Source of the DNA: an uncultured Armatimonadota bacterium
GTDB taxonomy: Bacteria > Armatimonadota > Fimbriimonadia > Fimbriimonadales > Fimbriimonadaceae
Length of the DNA: 64,000 nucleotides
Assembly: GCA_903927345.1 (NCBI GenBank)
Contig: CAIYMO010000055.1
Span: forward strand, 62,001-126,000
Direction of reading: 5' to 3'
Below, in pieces: positions 41,426 through 49,155 of the stretch. The stretch's first letter is position 1. Each line of letters begins with the position of its first letter. The notes beneath the pieces are model-generated. The model was not told where the DNA came from, ran no database searches, and was given only the letters and a program-made list of their open reading frames with translations. The position numbers and the translations under genes are program-made.

Positions 41426-41478
41426 ATTTCGCATTTCGTCGAAATAATGGCGTAGAATCATTTCGATGGAAGTCGAAA
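41426..41478. promoter_or_regulatory. ArsR operator with ATTTCG boxes around a -10 box
   Basis: ATTTCG at 41426-41431, 41433-41438 and 41460-41465 alternates with CGAAAT at 41440-41445 and CGAAA at 41474-41478. The palindrome ATTTCG-T-CGAAAT (41433-41445) is perfect. The -10-like TAGAAT (41453-41458) lies between the boxes, and the arsR ATG follows 7 bases later. This suits autorepression by ArsR and a leaderless transcript. Confidence 0.6.
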
Positions 41479-41810
41479 CGAACCGATTAGCGTTCCGAGC
41501 CTTAGCTGATCCCACTCGGCTCCACATCGTGGAGTTTCTCGCGTCAATGTGTTGTGGCCGAGCTTCCGTGGATGACGAAGGCGGCGTAGAAGGTCCAACC
41601 GCTGGCGAAATCTGCTGCCACATAACGGGCGAAGAAAAGATCAGTTCGACGATTTCACACCACCTTCATGAGCTTGAGGGAGCTGGACTTATCCAGATCG
41701 AACGCCGGGGGAAGCGGATGCTCTGCACCCTGAAATCTGACGCGCTACTCTCGCTCGCAATCTATTTGCAAACCCTTGCCAAATCCAACGACCAGACCAA
41801 CTGCTGCTAA
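41466..41810 (+). CDS. arsR: ArsR-family arsenic-responsive repressor
   Basis: A 114-aa winged-helix repressor that releases DNA when arsenite binds. It starts MEVETNRLAFRALADPTRLH, the ArsR helix 1-2. The recognition helix lies in ISSTISHHLHELEGAGLIQI and the wing in ERRGKRMLCTLK. Cysteine clusters that could hold arsenite are CC at 29-30, the EICC motif and the C-terminal NCC. The start is 7 bases after TAGAAT, so the mRNA may be leaderless. An operator of ATTTCG boxes overlaps the start. Confidence 0.85.
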   Translation: MEVETNRLAFRALADPTRLHIVEFLASMCCGRASVDDEGGVEGPTAGEICCHITGEEKISSTISHHLHELEGAGLIQIERRGKRMLCTLKSDALLSLAIYLQTLAKSNDQTNCC

Positions 41811-41814
41811 AACC

Positions 41815-42711
41815 ATGAACGAAAACACTAGACTCATCGACCGAGAAGACGTACGCGAAATCGTTCGCGAGAAGTATGGCGCTGCCGCCCTCACCGTTCT
41901 CAACGGTCAAGGTGCTGCTTGCTGTGGTGGAAACACCGGGGGCGGTAACGATAGCTGTTGTGGAGGTGATGTGATCACCGGAAACCTGTACAGCGAATCG
42001 GAAGCTGGCGATATTCCTGAGGCGGCGCTGCTGGCTTCGCTTGGTTGCGGAAACCCAACTGCTCTTGCATCGCTGAGTGAGGGAGAGACGGTCCTTGATC
42101 TGGGCTCTGGTGGCGGAATCGATGTTCTTCTTTCTGCCCGGCGAGTTGGTTCAACCGGCTTCGCATTTGGGCTCGATATGACCGACGAAATGCTCGCACT
42201 TGCGGAGCGAAATAAGGCGGAGAGCGGCATTAGCAATGTTTCGTTCCTCAAGGGACACATTGAGGCGATTCCGCTCCCCAATAACTCGGTTGACGTAATC
42301 ATCTCCAACTGCGTGATCAACTTGTCAAGCGACAAGGATGCGGTGATCCGAGAGGCGTTCCGAGTCTTGAAACCCGGTGGACGATTTGCCGTTTCGGATG
42401 TCGTCGTCGAGGGCGAGATTCCTTCGGCTGTCCGAGCCGATATGGAGGCTTATGTTGGTTGCGTGGCGGGTGCGATGGAGTACAGCGAATATCTCGGAAA
42501 GCTTGCCGCCGCCGGGTTTGAGAATGGGTCGATTGAGCCGACTCGTCGTTACACCTTTGCCGACCTTGAAGCCACGACGTGCACTTCGCCAGAAGTCAGT
42601 GCGCTCTCTGCCGAAGAGAAGTCGAACCTTGATGGCAGGATTATGGGTGCCTTTATCCGGGCGACGAAGCCGAAAGAGGGTGCTTGCTGCGGAACGGAGT
42701 GCTGCAACTGA
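41815..42711 (+). CDS. arsM: Arsenite S-adenosylmethionine methyltransferase
   Basis: A 298-aa enzyme that methylates As(III) to mono-, di- and trimethylarsenicals, some volatile. It begins MNENTRLIDREDVREIVREK; its Cys-rich N-terminal stretch (AACCGG; SCCGGD) is typical. The AdoMet motif is VLDLGSGGGIDVLL. The conserved arsenic-binding cysteines appear as SNCVINLS and YVGCVAGAM. It follows arsR by 4 bases and lacks a Shine-Dalgarno, so it relies on coupling. Its stop overlaps the arsC start. Confidence 0.9.
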   Translation: MNENTRLIDREDVREIVREKYGAAALTVLNGQGAACCGGNTGGGNDSCCGGDVITGNLYSESEAGDIPEAALLASLGCGNPTALASLSEGETVLDLGSGGGIDVLLSARRVGSTGFAFGLDMTDEMLALAERNKAESGISNVSFLKGHIEAIPLPNNSVDVIISNCVINLSSDKDAVIREAFRVLKPGGRFAVSDVVVEGEIPSAVRADMEAYVGCVAGAMEYSEYLGKLAAAGFENGSIEPTRRYTFADLEATTCTSPEVSALSAEEKSNLDGRIMGAFIRATKPKEGACCGTECCN

Positions 42712-43112
42712 AAACGGTTATCTTCCTTTGTGTTCACAACGCGGGACGATCTCAGATGGCAGAAGCGTTTGTGAACTACGAAGCTAAGGCGCGTAGGTTG
42801 GAGATTCGAGGGGAATCCGCGGGAACAGTCGGTGGAAAGCAGCTGAATCCGACAGCCGTGGAGGCTATGGCGGAGTTGGGGATTAGCATGGAGGGGCAGC
42901 ATCCGAAGCTGATGACCCAAGACATGGTGGATGGTGCGGACAAGATCATCTCGATGGGATGTGGCGTCGATGCCGCAGCCTGCCCCGCCAAGTTCATTCT
43001 TACCGAGGATTGGGGTCTGGATGATCCGGCGGGGCAGGGAATTGAGACGGTGCGCGTGATCCGGGACCAGATTCGAGGACACGTGGTGAAGCTGTTGGAG
43101 GAGATGGCTTGA
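42708..43112 (+). CDS. arsC: Arsenate reductase, thioredoxin-coupled (low-MW phosphatase type)
   Basis: A 134-aa enzyme that reduces As(V) to As(III). The P-loop CVHNAGR (CX5R) has C8, and C85 and C92 in MGCGVDAAACP form the Cys relay. The C-terminal DP pair is in DWGLDDPAG. Numbering assumes initiation at CTG 42708, which overlaps the arsM stop and has CGGAG 8 bases upstream, giving an N-terminus (KTVIFLCVHN) like other ArsC proteins. GTG 42699 and TTG 42684 are alternatives. A non-canonical CTG start is therefore plausible but not proved. Confidence 0.86.
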   Translation: MKTVIFLCVHNAGRSQMAEAFVNYEAKARRLEIRGESAGTVGGKQLNPTAVEAMAELGISMEGQHPKLMTQDMVDGADKIISMGCGVDAAACPAKFILTEDWGLDDPAGQGIETVRVIRDQIRGHVVKLLEEMA

Positions 43113-43738
43113 ACAAGAAGCTACTCGCAGAGTTTTTGGGGACGTTTGGGATTGTCTTCGCTCCACTAATGGCATCTGCGGCGAAGACTGATCTCGCGAT
43201 TGCGGCCTGGGTTTCTGGGTTAGCAGTAATGGCGATGATCTACGTCTTTGGACCAATCTCAGGTGCGCAGTTTAACCCGGCGGTCACGATTGCTTTGGCG
43301 GTCTCTAAAAAGCAAGAACGGTCGGTTGTCGTGCCGTACATCGTTGCTCAAATCCTTGGCGGACTTGCGGCAGGTCTTCTCGGTTTGCTCCTGTTCGGTG
43401 GAGCGTTTGGGACTCATGTGCCTTCTGCGCCCGACGCATTTGTGCGGAACATTGGAACGGAGATCGTGCTTTCGACAATTCTGATGGCGGTCATCTTTGC
43501 GGTGATACGTAAGGAGAATCCGCTCGCTCCGGTTGTCATCGGTCTGACGGTTGTCCTTCTGGTGATGATGGGTGGAAACATCACGGGTGGGTCGATGAAC
43601 CCGGCCCGATCACTTGGCCCCGATATCGTTGGTGGCGCTCAGACTTTGGGAAGCATTTGGGTTTATCTCATCGGTCCCCCAGTCGGCATGTTGCTCGCGG
43701 TAATGCTCGAACGCGTGTTCTTCACGAGTTCGGACTAA
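43109..43738 (+). CDS. Aquaporin-like channel, probable arsenite exit route (AqpS-like)
   Basis: A 209-aa MIP-family membrane channel. Six hydrophobic segments and two half-helices carry the NPA motifs QFNPAVT and SMNPARSLGP. It starts with TTG in an ATGGCTTGA overlap with arsC, after a strong GGAGGAG site. In Sinorhizobium meliloti, AqpS in an ars operon lets arsenite flow out once ArsC has made it inside. The operon position here supports that role. A plain water or glycerol channel cannot be excluded. Confidence 0.8.
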   Translation: MNKKLLAEFLGTFGIVFAPLMASAAKTDLAIAAWVSGLAVMAMIYVFGPISGAQFNPAVTIALAVSKKQERSVVVPYIVAQILGGLAAGLLGLLLFGGAFGTHVPSAPDAFVRNIGTEIVLSTILMAVIFAVIRKENPLAPVVIGLTVVLLVMMGGNITGGSMNPARSLGPDIVGGAQTLGSIWVYLIGPPVGMLLAVMLERVFFTSSD

Positions 43739-44206: not shown

Positions 44207-44722
44207 TTAGATCAGAGGTCGACCGTCAGCATCTCTCTCGCTTCCTGTGAAGATGCTTATGGCATTGATAAGTGCCCAAATCCCTGTGATGATGCCCCCG
44301 TACCCGCAAGTCAACAAGCAGATTAGGAGCATGGTGATTCCAAGCCCATTTTTCCCTAGATAAAACTGGTGAATACCGATCCCACCGAGGAACAATGCAA
44401 GCAACCCGGCAACCATTCGTGATTTGTTTGGATATGCGTGACCATACGGACCTGTCGGCATTGTGTTATTCACAACTACTTGAACGTTTCCGTTCCCTGA
44501 TTGCCTGGCGGGCTGTATCGGAGGCGTTTGGAAGGGTAAAGGAGGGGCGTTCTGAAACAGCGGTTGGACCAACATGAACGTATTTGCCGGGGCATGCTGA
44601 CCTGACACGGCGTCAATAAGAATGGTGTGGGTTGTTACTCGACCGTCGATAACCCACTGCTGGAGGACTGTCATATCAACTGGACCGTAAACCTGTCCAT
44701 TATGACCAACAACTGAATACAT
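44207..44722 (-). CDS. GYF-like plus TM2-domain membrane protein
   Basis: A 171-aa protein from the ATG at 44722. Residues 1-55 resemble a bacterial GYF_2 domain (SVVGHNGQVYGPVDMTVLQQ; WVIDGRVTTHTIL). A Pro/Gln-rich linker follows. The C-terminal TM2 domain has two helices (MVAGLLALFLGGIGIHQFYL; GIITGIWALINAISIF) and the HQFYLGKNGLG turn. TM2 proteins are widespread and of unknown function. It faces away from the ars operon and reads alone. Confidence 0.72.
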   Translation of the reverse strand: MYSVVGHNGQVYGPVDMTVLQQWVIDGRVTTHTILIDAVSGQHAPANTFMLVQPLFQNAPPLPFQTPPIQPARQSGNGNVQVVVNNTMPTGPYGHAYPNKSRMVAGLLALFLGGIGIHQFYLGKNGLGITMLLICLLTCGYGGIITGIWALINAISIFTGSERDADGRPLI

Positions 44723-44844
44723 AGTGAGAGCATAACATGATTCAAGTCCGATCGGCAATCCACATAAACCGAACTTTTGTGAATAACATATAGTTCGTTT
44801 GTAAGACACAACAGCCTTAAAGATCGCGCTCTAATCGGTAGCCT

Positions 44845-45291
44845 GTGAATCTTGCTCCCGGTAAGCTCAATGTGAATCTCATGGCGACGCAGTGGAAAGT
44901 TCGAGCGACCGAGGTGACTCCTCAGCGGACGGCGGTGATTGTGATCGCGATCCTTCTTGGCGTGGTGGGTGGGTTTGCGCTCCGGATTCCGCTGCTTGCG
45001 ATCATGGCACTCGGCTTCTTTTCGCCCATCTTATTTGAATACTTTGCTGGGAAGAAGTGTGAGGTGTCTGATGTGGGAGCGACCGCCGGATTTAGCACGA
45101 TCACTTGGGACAGAGTGAAAAGCGTGAAAGTTGAAGAAAACGCGGTACAACTGTCCCCGTTTGAGTCAGAATCAAGGCTCGATGCGACGCGCGGAGTCCG
45201 ATTGGTCTTCGATGCGAACGTCGACCGAGAAGGGGTGATGGAAATCATCCGCTCTCATTTAGGCAAAGATGTTCGATTTTTGGGAGGATGA
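44845..45291 (+). CDS. Membrane-anchored PH-like (YcxB-like) protein, first gene of the unknown membrane operon
   Basis: A 148-aa protein starting at GTG 44845. Two hydrophobic helices span about residues 27-66 (AVIVIAILLGVVGGFALRIP; LAIMALGFFSPILFEYF). They are followed by a soluble part in which TITWDRVKSVKVEENAVQL and a charged, strand-rich stretch resemble the bacterial PH / YcxB-like fold. The match is by eye and moderate. Its last 23 bases overlap the next gene, suggesting coupling. It probably starts the conserved membrane cassette. Confidence 0.55.
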   Translation: MNLAPGKLNVNLMATQWKVRATEVTPQRTAVIVIAILLGVVGGFALRIPLLAIMALGFFSPILFEYFAGKKCEVSDVGATAGFSTITWDRVKSVKVEENAVQLSPFESESRLDATRGVRLVFDANVDREGVMEIIRSHLGKDVRFLGG

Positions 45292-45592
45292 GCTCAGCGA
45301 AGAGCAAACCGAAGAACTTCTGCAGAAAGCTGCAGGAGAGATCAGGAAGCGCAAGTTGGAAGCTCCTGCCATCCTGTTTTTCGAAATGCACAAGCCAATC
45401 TCCAACGTCATGGCCCACCTGACTCTGGTCAGCGCGCCGATGTTGGTGCCATTTTTAGGCTTTGATTTCGTGAATCAATATAGTAATTTGTTGAGAAAGC
45501 GGGATAATGTCGAACGTCTGATCTGTATCCTGGAAGAAATTCCGGGCGATGAGCCGCAGTTATTGGAGACTTCATGCCAGAAAAACAAATAG
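45269..45592 (+). CDS. Short conserved protein of the unknown membrane operon
   Basis: A 107-aa protein. The N-terminal helix is acidic (WEDELSEEQTEELLQKAAGE). A conserved centre reads APAILFFEMHKPISNVMAHL, then LTLVSAPMLVPFLGFDFV and a C-terminal helix (SNLLRKRDNVERLICILEE). One amphipathic or hydrophobic segment could touch the membrane. I recall similar short proteins from Chloroflexota and related genomes but not a name. It overlaps both neighbours (23 and 19 bases). Confidence 0.55.
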   Translation: MFDFWEDELSEEQTEELLQKAAGEIRKRKLEAPAILFFEMHKPISNVMAHLTLVSAPMLVPFLGFDFVNQYSNLLRKRDNVERLICILEEIPGDEPQLLETSCQKNK

Positions 45593-46581
45593 GAGCTTGG
45601 TCTTTGGACAGCCAAATGCTAGGCGCGAACTATTGGGACGTAGGGTGGTTTGGGCTGCTCTTCACCCTTATGATTATCGTTTTCATCGTTTTCAACGTGA
45701 AAAGAGCCGGTAAGGGTGACAACCTGTTTATCCGACGCATCTCAGGTTTGAACGCGATCGATGAGGCCGTTGGGCGTGCCACCGAGATGGGAAGACCGGT
45801 CCTGATGGTTCCCGGACTTTCGGATCCCGTTAACGCGACCGCTGTCCAGGCGATCAACATTTGCGCTCACGTTGCAAAGACGGCTGCGAAGTTCAGTAAC
45901 CCGATCATCATGTGCGCCTATTCGGCATCGATGTTCACACTGGCGCAAGAAGTCATCCGAGATACCTATCAGTCCGAAGGGTATCCCGAGCGATTCGATC
46001 CAGACTCCGTTCGATTTATCTCTGACCGACAATTCGCATTCGCGGCGGGTGTCTCGGGAATCATCCACCGAGAACAGACGGCTGCTGCGTTCTTCCTTGG
46101 TGAGTTCTATGCTGAGTCGCTGATCTTTGCCGAGACGGCAAACTCGATCGGTGCGATTCAGGTTGCATCTTCCACGGAAGCTACTCAAACCCCATTCTTC
46201 ATCGCGGCTTGCGACTACGTTCTTATTGGTGACGAGTTCTATGCGGCGTCCGCTTATCTGACCCGTGACCCGATCATGGTCGGTTCGCTGGTCGGTCAAG
46301 ACTGGTCCAAGATGGTCGCGATCGCGTTCATTGCACTGGGCTGCTTGAACGCATCGGTCACTCAATACAACCTGGCCAAGGAAACGGCAGAGGTTGTCGA
46401 GATTTATAAAGACGATCAGGAAGGGCTGACTAAGCAGATTGAGGTCATGACTGAAGAGCACAAGAAGGACTTTTCAATCTCCCGGCTCATCAAGGCGGAG
46501 AAGCCACCTAAGGACCTGAAGATTGTGCGAAAGCCCGCTCCAGCAGAGCCTGGCGCACCGGCACCGGAGGCAACTAAGTGA
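45574..46581 (+). CDS. Membrane protein, resembles the DUF6754 family
   Basis: A 335-aa protein with an N-terminal transmembrane helix (GWFGLLFTLMIIVFIVFNVK, about 24-43). It is followed by a soluble region: LNAIDEAVGRATEMGRPVLM; AINICAHVAKTAAKFSNPII; FAAGVSGIIHREQTAAAFFL; ATQTPFFIAACDYVLIGDEF. A hydrophobic helix lies near residue 250 and a basic, Pro-rich tail ends it. I recall this layout as DUF6754, unverified. It overlaps the preceding gene by 19 bases and the next start by 4 (GTGA). Confidence 0.6.
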   Translation: MPEKQIGAWSLDSQMLGANYWDVGWFGLLFTLMIIVFIVFNVKRAGKGDNLFIRRISGLNAIDEAVGRATEMGRPVLMVPGLSDPVNATAVQAINICAHVAKTAAKFSNPIIMCAYSASMFTLAQEVIRDTYQSEGYPERFDPDSVRFISDRQFAFAAGVSGIIHREQTAAAFFLGEFYAESLIFAETANSIGAIQVASSTEATQTPFFIAACDYVLIGDEFYAASAYLTRDPIMVGSLVGQDWSKMVAIAFIALGCLNASVTQYNLAKETAEVVEIYKDDQEGLTKQIEVMTEEHKKDFSISRLIKAEKPPKDLKIVRKPAPAEPGAPAPEATK

Positions 46582-47477
46582 ACGATACATTTTGGGCAAG
46601 AAACCCGCAAGGCGATTTGAAGATGTTCATCGCCGGGGGACTGATCCTCGGGATCGTTCTCTTCCTTGCGGTGATGAATACTCCGATTCAAGCACGGCGG
46701 CCACTTGTTTGGCTGGTGACGTTCTTGTCGGGCGGCTTTATGGTGGCGTACACCTACTGGCCTAAGCCGATCAACTTTGACGCCAAGACTGAACTTCCTC
46801 GAAACGGGGTCGAATCTGTTGGTTCATTCCTTCAGCAGTCGTTTGGAACTGTCTCTAGCTTCGTCCAGATTATTGCGGCGTTCCTGCTTGGACTGGGAAT
46901 CTTTAGCCTGCTCAAGATTCACTTGACCAACATTGCACGAAAGAAGAAAGACTGGGTCTTCAGTGTGGTTCTTCTTGTCTCGATGTTCAGCATGATCATC
47001 TTCGGATACTGGGACTTCAGCATTCGCCAAGGGAACAAGGCGATCGACTTTGACGATCCTCAGTTCTGGCAGATGCCGAACATGGTTCGCGACTTCCTGT
47101 TCGACGGCCTTCTTCAGCAGATGGACGCAGCAATGTTCTCGATCATTGCGTTCTTTATCCTTTCCGCGGCCTACCGAGCGTTTCGTGCTCGATCGGTCGA
47201 GGCGACAATCCTGCTCGGAACTGCGCTCCTCGTGATCCTCTCGCTCATGGGAGTTGTTGCGGGAATGTGGGATGACGCGGTGGTCGCAATGGCTGGAACT
47301 GACAAGTCAGCGAAGGCTGATTTCCTTCTCAACTTTAAGATCACAGAGGTCGCGGGGTGGATCAAAAACACCTTCCAGACTCCGGCGATCACGGGCATCA
47401 AGTTTGGTATCGGTCTTGGAACCATTTCCATGGCTCTCCGAATCTGGCTCGGTCTGGAAAAGGGAGGTAAAGCATGA
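46578..47477 (+). CDS. Multi-pass membrane protein of the unknown membrane operon
   Basis: A 299-aa protein with about seven membrane helices (FIAGGLILGIVLFLAVMN; LVWLVTFLSGGFMVAYTYW; IIAAFLLGLGIFSLLKI; VFSVVLLVSMFSMIIFGYW; AMFSIIAFFILSAAYRAF; ILLGTALLVILSLMGVVAGM; FGIGLGTISMALRIWLGL). A loop of Asp-rich, aromatic character (WDFSIRQGNKAIDFDDPQFW) may be functionally important. It starts within a GTGA overlap and ends in an ATGA overlap. I recognise no family. Confidence 0.6.
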   Translation: MNDTFWARNPQGDLKMFIAGGLILGIVLFLAVMNTPIQARRPLVWLVTFLSGGFMVAYTYWPKPINFDAKTELPRNGVESVGSFLQQSFGTVSSFVQIIAAFLLGLGIFSLLKIHLTNIARKKKDWVFSVVLLVSMFSMIIFGYWDFSIRQGNKAIDFDDPQFWQMPNMVRDFLFDGLLQQMDAAMFSIIAFFILSAAYRAFRARSVEATILLGTALLVILSLMGVVAGMWDDAVVAMAGTDKSAKADFLLNFKITEVAGWIKNTFQTPAITGIKFGIGLGTISMALRIWLGLEKGGKA

Positions 47478-48415
47478 AAAAAGGTGGAATTCCAAAGTTC
47501 GTTATCTACGCGTTGCTGATTGCATGCTGTTCGATTCCTCTCTTCTTTAAGATCCCGATTCCGAACAAGCCAAGCGAACCTTCGGTTGACTTCTACAAGA
47601 CTCTATCGGCACTCAAGGAAGGCGATGTTGTTCTTGTCGGTAGCGACTGGACTGGTTCCACTCGCGGCGAGAGCAAAGGACACATGAAAGCGATCCTTCG
47701 CACCTTGATGCGAAAGAAAGTCAAGTTCGTCATCTGGAGTACTGCGGATCCACAGGCTCCACGAGCTGCCCTTGACGTCATCGCAGAGGTTAATGCTGAG
47801 CGAGTCGCGAACAAGGAAGAGAAGTATCAACGCTGGACTCAGTGGGTCAGCGCTGGCTACTATCCAAACTCGGACGTTGCGATCAACTCGGTCGCCCAGG
47901 ACATCAAGACGGCCTTCGGCGCACGTCGTGAGAACGACACCACCGGCGTTCAGCAACCGCTGTTCAAGAGCCCGGTGATGGAGAAGATCAAGAGCGTGAC
48001 CGACTTCGATCTCGTGATTGACGTCACTGCTTCCAAGACGACTGACTTCCACGTTCAGTTTATTAGTGCCAAGAACGTTCCGCTCATGTTCGCCGTCACC
48101 GGCGTCATGGGGCCAGAAACCCAGGTGTTCTACAACTCCAAGCAGATCAAAGGCTTCCTCTCAGGACTCAAAGGAGTCTTCGATATGGAGCAGATGATGG
48201 AGAAGGGAGTCAACGTCAAGGACGCAAACGGCGTTGCCGCTGTTTCTTCCGATCGAGTGCCGGGCGAGATTGCTCCGTTGCCGGGAGTGAGCGTTGGTCA
48301 AGGAACCAAGTACTATCCCACGCTCCACGTTGCTTTGTTGTTGATGATCGTGATGATCGGTATCGGAAACTATGAAATGCTTGCCGCTCGCAAGCGACAA
48401 GGAGGAAAGGCATGA
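47474..48415 (+). CDS. Membrane-anchored protein with a large soluble domain, unknown membrane operon
   Basis: A 313-aa protein with an N-terminal transmembrane helix (about 8-27) and a second near the C-terminus (ALLLMIVMIGIGNYEML). Between them a soluble domain of about 250 residues, probably outside, has a mixed alpha/beta look: KEGDVVLVGSDWTGSTRGES; LRTLMRKKVKFVIWSTADP; VTDFDLVIDVTASKTTDF; VPLMFAVTGVMGPETQVFY. The strand-loop pattern suggests a Rossmann-like or SIS-like core. No catalytic signature is clear. Both ends are ATGA overlaps. Confidence 0.6.
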   Translation: MKKGGIPKFVIYALLIACCSIPLFFKIPIPNKPSEPSVDFYKTLSALKEGDVVLVGSDWTGSTRGESKGHMKAILRTLMRKKVKFVIWSTADPQAPRAALDVIAEVNAERVANKEEKYQRWTQWVSAGYYPNSDVAINSVAQDIKTAFGARRENDTTGVQQPLFKSPVMEKIKSVTDFDLVIDVTASKTTDFHVQFISAKNVPLMFAVTGVMGPETQVFYNSKQIKGFLSGLKGVFDMEQMMEKGVNVKDANGVAAVSSDRVPGEIAPLPGVSVGQGTKYYPTLHVALLLMIVMIGIGNYEMLAARKRQGGKA

Positions 48416-49155
48416 AGCCAGAACAGATCGAAACTTACAGGACAGTCGCCGCTGCGGCGGGAGTGCTCGCAACTCTGGGTCTCTTCAGCGTCCTCTACAA
48501 AGAGAACAAGTTCTACCGACTTTTTGAGCATATTTTCCTTGGCCTCGCAGCCGGTTGGTCTGCGGTTGCAGTCTGGACCGAATCGCTTCGAGAAATCTGG
48601 TGGGACAAGCTGACGGGCGTTGTTGAGACGACCGGCGTTGTTACTGAGCCAGGTCGATGGGCTTACATCCTCCTGATTCCGATTGGCGCCATGGGCTACA
48701 TGGTCTTCAGCAAGAAGCACAACTGGATGGCTAAGATCCCTATGGGCGTCTTGCTAGGAATCTGGTCGGGTCAGCAGATCCAGTCTTACTGGACTGTCTA
48801 TGGTCCTCAGATGAAGCAGGGAATGCTCCCGATTGTTCCGACCGCCTTTGATCAGGTGATCGCACGATCGGATCGAACGCCTGAACTGGCCGCAGTGACC
48901 ATCACTTGGTCGCAGGCAATCTCGAACTTCTTGTTCGTGTTCACGCTTCTTTCGGTTCTGAGCTACTTCCTGTTCAGCTTCGAAGTGAAGAACAAGGCGC
49001 TGAAGCAAGTGAACGTTGCGGGTCGATACCTGTTGATGATCGGTTTTGGTGCAATCTTCGGAAGCACTGTTATGATGCGATTCTCGCTGGTTATTGACCG
49101 CATGTACTTCATCTGGGACGAGTTCCTGATGAAGCGCGTTCTGCATATTGGCTAG
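48412..49155 (+). CDS. Multi-pass membrane protein, last gene of the unknown membrane operon
   Basis: A 247-aa protein with six or so hydrophobic helices (AAAGVLATLGLFSVLYKEN; IFLGLAAGWSAVAVWTES; AYILLIPIGAMGYMVFSKK; IPMGVLLGIWSGQQIQSYW; NFLFVFTLLSVLSYFLFSF; LLMIGFGAIFGSTVMMRFS). It carries charged loops and ends VIDRMYFIWDEFLMKRVLHI. It overlaps the previous gene by ATGA. recO begins 2 bases after its stop, so recO is translated from the same transcript. The function is unknown. Confidence 0.6.
   Translation: MKPEQIETYRTVAAAAGVLATLGLFSVLYKENKFYRLFEHIFLGLAAGWSAVAVWTESLREIWWDKLTGVVETTGVVTEPGRWAYILLIPIGAMGYMVFSKKHNWMAKIPMGVLLGIWSGQQIQSYWTVYGPQMKQGMLPIVPTAFDQVIARSDRTPELAAVTITWSQAISNFLFVFTLLSVLSYFLFSFEVKNKALKQVNVAGRYLLMIGFGAIFGSTVMMRFSLVIDRMYFIWDEFLMKRVLHIG

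Follow-up and report, generated by a model that had tools for sequence, protein, structure and literature searches.

DUF6754 (PF20539) is the described family closest to the membrane genes reported here; one of their products, protein C, is a clear member, and the Pfam entry gives neither a function nor any partner genes. A second product, protein M, matches the GlmL/MutL family (PF13941, TIGR01319, NF040745) over its full length and contains its ATP-binding motifs. Members of that family are accessories of B12-dependent mutases, and GlmL-type proteins are thought to keep these mutases active, whereas M accompanies a membrane operon, no mutase having recurred beside it in the loci read, and has a length of ~600-630 aa, compared with ~450-460 positions in the family models. 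Looser likenesses were found between the first part of protein X and the N-terminal barrel-sandwich domain of RnfC/NqrA as well as biotin/lipoyl domains, but the match is weak and the operon showed no other subunit of Rnf or Nqr. Similarly, the soluble domains of proteins E and C share a general alpha/beta fold with the CODH epsilon subunit, Sir2 and the RCK domain of MthK, but the identity is ~8-13 percent for the top matches, the GxGxxG motif is lacking, and membrane helices lie on each side. DUF6754, PF20539 and PF13941 were not mentioned in the non-subscription literature searched, so that an earlier description elsewhere is possible. The first-pass annotation of the DNA had suggested an undescribed system, and indeed none of the genes proved clearly homologous to parts of a described complex, no known enzyme or defense family was matched by the set, and no described complex was seen to resemble the eight-gene system. 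DUF6754 and PF13941 are themselves already catalogued, and the placing of the system outside those known is provisional, as it depends on the function. To our knowledge, it is rare for a near-core gene set shared by many phyla to lack any assigned function.

Composition of the Six-Gene Run

The window analyzed in this study is the whole stretch of 64,000 nucleotides from an uncultured Armatimonadota bacterium, and the genes of interest, A to F, form a run at 44845-49155 (Table 1). Consecutive genes overlap by 23, 19, 4, 4 and 4 bases, and recO, identified from its matches to Pfam RecO_N/RecO_C and TIGR00613, starts 2 bases past the end of F. The first-pass annotation had described six overlapping genes with recO 2 bases on, and every one of these open reading frames was confirmed in its place on the + strand. 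Its mention of a DUF6754-like protein was also borne out, as C matches PF20539 with an E value of 6e-93 and 311 bits versus a gathering cut-off of 27. The description of A as a PH-like anchor stands on weaker ground: A of the window itself had no bPH match, and 7 of 43 relatives matched bPH_6, with a best E value of 9e-4.

Table 1. Genes of the six-gene run in the window.
Gene	Position	Strand	Length (aa)	Features
A	44845-45291	+	148	Membrane hairpin and probable bacterial PH-like domain
B	45269-45592	+	107	Short, with conserved PAILFLEMHKPLS core; no known family
C	45574-46581	+	335	DUF6754; Rossmann-like domain flanked by two membrane helices; predicted cytoplasmic
D	46578-47477	+	299	Multi-pass membrane protein; conserved FRARS-EA motif; no known family
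E	47474-48415	+	313	Rossmann-like domain flanked by two membrane helices; predicted extracytoplasmic; no known family
F	48412-49155	+	247	Multi-pass membrane protein; conserved AEHxFVG and YFFFS motifs; no known family

Pfam, NCBIfam, PADLOC and PHROGs held no family that A, B, D, E or F matched over the cut-off. When dozens of relatives of A, D, E and F were searched singly, the matches were weak or stray at most (stray weak matches for D, none for F). Profile searches of the PDB with A-F and X returned FnIII for the relatives of C and otherwise nothing convincing, and M found no chain among the PDB profiles. The possibility that D and F are ancient duplicates of one another was unsupported by profile comparison.

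Immediately upstream of the run, at 41466-43738, is a likely arsenic-resistance cluster, as read from the translations, comprising an ArsR-like regulator, an ArsM-like methyltransferase, an ArsC-like phosphatase and an aquaporin-like channel. Between this cluster and A, on the - strand at 44207-44809, lies an open reading frame of 200 aa that resembles a GYF_2 and TM2 membrane protein; it is divergent from A and ~35 bases apart from it.

Conservation and Distribution of the Operon

The order A-B-C-D-E-F on one strand was present in most of 40 wider regions from diverse Armatimonadota families, among which recO adjoined the run only in the taxonomic order to which the window belongs. The first-pass annotation had proposed that gene order conserved without recO would mark the run as a unit, and such conservation was found strongly across distant genomes; since the same order recurs in these, a chance association of A-F is excluded. 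In Fermentibacteria, Aegiribacteria, Phycisphaerales and others the genes occur as an A-B-M-X-C-D-E-F operon, and this eight-gene operon is common to many little-studied bacterial phyla. When 84,980 species genomes were scanned for C, at least 570 coding matches were obtained. The best 80 of these came from records titled Armatimonadota, WOR-3/Stahlbacteria, Eisenbacteria, Latescibacterota, Zixibacteria, Edwardsbacteria, Coatesbacteria, Fermentibacteria, Aegiribacteria, Gemmatimonadota, Planctomycetes, Methylomirabilis and others, the phylum labels being those of the record titles, of which many belong to MAGs and single ones may be wrong. Among these best 80 C loci, D was found in 78, E in 78, F in 74, B in 75 and A in 68.

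A tight coupling of the genes was not a general feature of the operon. In a survey of 121 loci, window included, the median spacing was +6 for C-D, -1 for D-E and -4 for E-F (D followed C in 129 cases and F followed E in 124), and the gap between B and C could hold other genes. Since many relatives have loose overlaps or none, the overlaps are no evidence for the stoichiometric complex that the first-pass annotation had read from a fixed coupling.

DUF6754 was detected in 252 of 291 Armatimonadota genomes, including 181 of the 194 good ones, and in 113 of 120 WOR-3 genomes, which carry up to seven DUF6754 genes each; it was absent from all 14 of the well-known control genomes. A set kept in ~93 percent of good Armatimonadota genomes is, then, one that the well-known controls yet lack. 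This near-universal presence in Armatimonadota argues against a role in defense; PADLOC models gave no match for A-F, M or X, a negative that by itself excludes nothing. A mobile or viral origin was also considered and rejected, with no relatives of C found on plasmids or viral contigs.

Two Further Members of the Set

Between B and C, a further group of Armatimonadota families and several other phyla have two genes, which encode M (~600 aa) and X (~375 aa). In the window's own genome both are single genes on other contigs (G000:C34 for M, G000:C33 for X), so that their membership could not be found by reading the window locus alone. M proteins of the operons in other lineages match PF13941 (MutL/GlmL) with E values of about 1e-121 or better, and the M of the window's genome matches it across its full length (E about 1e-131, 438.7 bits versus a cut-off of 27) and keeps the ATP-site motifs DCGSTTTK, DIGGATTDV and GSGG. 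Judged by these sequence features, M is likely a GlmL-like ATPase with an actin/Hsp70 fold. The NCBIfam models were matched under their cut-offs (NF040745 at 228/475 bits, NF040744 at 217/600 and TIGR01319 at 174/204), and GlmL and the Or-4 accessory proteins are the nearest named families. No B12-dependent mutase was seen to recur beside M in the loci read, the neighbors of which were partly annotated. The set would give GlmL-type ATPases a partner outside the B12-dependent mutases.

X is soluble. Its first part gave a weak barrel-sandwich match (E about 1e-3 to 1e-5), the remainder gave no match, and the invariant columns of the alignment included no lysine that could serve as the attachment site of a biotin/lipoyl carrier. 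In several Armatimonadota (L185:3094-3774, L195, L201, L202 and L205), X adjoins a response regulator of one cluster, as does the X of the window's genome, where the regulator is of the OmpR/PhoB type. In the otherwise complete genome of Armatimonadetes bacterium Uphvl-Ar1 (CP021423), X is spread over two frames with stops (G291:C1:23441-24558), which reflects either decay or an assembly error.

The presence of X follows that of C closely. Across the 194 good Armatimonadota genomes, 180 had both, one had C without X, three had X without C and ten had neither (Fisher p 2e-13, a statistic uncorrected for kinship), and the three with X alone are fragmented MAGs. M had the same pattern of presence and absence as X within the Armatimonadota. 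B went with C in every genome tested, being missing from each of 16 C-negative genomes and detected in each of 18 C-positive ones, and X was present in all 15 genomes reached via the wider loci, even where it was not beside C. C was missing from at least four separate clades (family f1, genus g43; family f6; family f13, genera g77, g79 and g80; family f41, genus g140), and since the absences fall in separate clades they were counted as separate losses. C, B, M and X were lost together.

Evidence for inheritance as a block was also obtained from duplicated copies, for which 122 complete C-D-E-F sets were assembled from 111 loci, ten of these with two or three sets. The matching of copies agreed for C, D, E and F in 22 of 45 locus pairs, the remaining pairs containing ties; opposing signs were seen in four of the 45, all involving L129 or L142, the copies of which resemble recent duplicates. 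This fits duplicated C-D-E-F copies having been inherited largely as sets. We consider it very probable that A-F, M and X make up one conserved system. The six-gene unit of the first-pass annotation is a real and deeply conserved one that proved to be larger than described, with two members encoded elsewhere in the genome, and the co-inheritance suggests a physical complex of the proteins.

Predicted Folds of C and E

AlphaFold2 models were obtained for E (pLDDT 95.2, pTM 0.91) and C (pLDDT 87.5, pTM 0.76) from inputs of 70 and 67 sequences, respectively. The two models have a common layout of one membrane helix, a Rossmann-like domain and one long membrane helix. In comparisons with VIA-align the best Z was 10.8 for C, to Sir2 and RCK domains, and 8.5 for E, to the CODH epsilon subunit, modest scores that point to generic Rossmann folds. 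On reading the alignments, no GxGxxG dinucleotide motif was seen after the first strand of either protein; the consensus has PGL...D for C and SxDYxPxTxxE for E. Polar residues are invariant at many positions of C, with C213, D214, E181 and E187 among them. An FnIII domain precedes the first helix in relatives of C, and its position and the flank charges agree with a topology in which the C domain is probably cytoplasmic and the E domain outside. An origin of C and E by ancient duplication was considered, and their homology was unsupported (hhalign E 0.04).

Proposed Mechanism and Alternatives

In the mechanism that we propose, A-F would be the membrane part of an eight-protein system, with M and X as the other two members. 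C, D, E and F would form an inner-membrane core in which the Rossmann-like domain of C would lie on the cytoplasmic side and the similarly laid out domain of E outside, the two being connected through the membrane by the multi-pass proteins D and F. ATP would be bound and hydrolyzed by M, which would drive or gate the core via X and B, and A would tether the core to the membrane or envelope, so that a small ligand or a conformational signal would be moved or sensed across the membrane. The analysis establishes the conservation of the unit, its co-inheritance with M, X and B, the block inheritance of duplicated C-D-E-F sets, the predicted folds and the ATPase motifs of M; the contacts, topology, use of ATP and role in transport or transduction are what we infer. 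Counted against the mechanism are the generic nature of the Rossmann matches of C and E, their lack of a GxGxxG motif and of supported homology to each other, the absence of a family for D and F, the lack of linkage of M and X to A-F in the window's genome and the lineage-specific character of the gene neighbors beyond the eight. On balance, an inner-membrane complex of C-D-E-F with accessory A and B, energized or gated by M through X and moving or sensing something, is a tentative reading to which we give somewhat less than an even chance. A fuller claim is possible and held with more doubt. In it, the eight proteins would be an undescribed ATP-driven machine of the inner membrane, driven by a GlmL-type ATPase of the actin fold and bearing a Rossmann-like domain on each face, which would belong to the core of Armatimonadota and WOR-3 and be shared with about a dozen other phyla. 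Cultured Armatimonadota would open the function of the set to direct testing.

An enzymatic reading and an envelope-scaffold reading are serious rivals to this mechanism. The set may encode a membrane-bound enzyme or redox complex, in which the Rossmann-like domains of C and/or E would bind a cofactor or nucleotide and carry out chemistry at the membrane, and M and X would keep the activity going. The nearest named families of M, GlmL and the Or-4 accessory proteins, speak for such a role, as do the invariant polar residues of C named above, the cofactor-binding nature of the folds closest to C and E and the weak likeness of X to RnfC/NqrA barrel-sandwich domains. However, M does not reach the cut-offs of GlmL and TIGR01319, neither a mutase nor any other catalytic gene was seen to recur in the conserved set, and the dinucleotide motif is absent from C and E, so we regard this explanation as unlikely. 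A little less likely is that A-F are an envelope scaffold or signaling platform that anchors or passes signals between the cytoplasm and the envelope, with M acting as an actin-fold switch and not as a motor. The PH-like appearance of A would suit a platform of this kind, as would the three WOR-3 loci in which C-D-E-F stands ahead of DUF4388 and ExbB-ExbD-ExbD-TonB genes and the OmpR/PhoB-type response regulator that adjoins X in several Armatimonadota, but those neighbors are lineage-specific. Dependence on TonB and dependence on an outer membrane were both examined as explanations in their own right and rejected, and the same data weigh against the scaffold: TonB does not track the system (TonB_C in 8 of 16 carriers and 6 of 13 non-carriers, and none in the window's genome), and loss of the system is independent of loss of the outer membrane, Omp85 being present in all of the C-negative genomes tested.

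The coverage of fold predictions (C and E) and of Pfam, in which A, B, D, E, F and X lack a clear model, leaves some room for remote kinship with a known transporter or complex, of which the genes would be a far-diverged branch too dissimilar to be recognized by sequence profiles or from the folds of C and E. We think this improbable, given that the PDB profile searches with A-F and X yielded FnIII and nothing else convincing, and we know of no complex that the gene set matches. Finally, the run adjoins housekeeping genes such as recO in the window's own taxonomic order, as it might if A-F were simply housekeeping membrane proteins, unrelated to one another and sharing no machine, whose genes are kept in one transcription unit. 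That the unit is kept across many phyla, is lost together with the unlinked M and X and has duplicates inherited as sets makes this explanation very improbable indeed.

Gene Neighbors and Variant Loci

Recurrent neighbors beyond the eight genes were recO, a GlmU-like gene and a PRPP-synthetase-like gene (the latter two named by reading of the sequence), GcvP and a TonB-receptor-like gene, each of them lineage-specific. L066 and L068 hold a variant in which C is accompanied by a larger D of 543-571 aa and no E or F is recognizable. At three WOR-3 loci (L145, L156 and L162; e.g., L145:9364-14495), the genes after C-D-E-F encode a DUF4388 protein, several proteins of no known family and then ExbB-ExbD-ExbD-TonB, and this arrangement is perhaps a specialized copy tied to envelope energy. 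Seven loci (L133, L138, L140, L153, L162, L166 and L176) have a gene of ~920 aa near the operon on the same strand, which was TonB-receptor-like in both of the members that were scanned.
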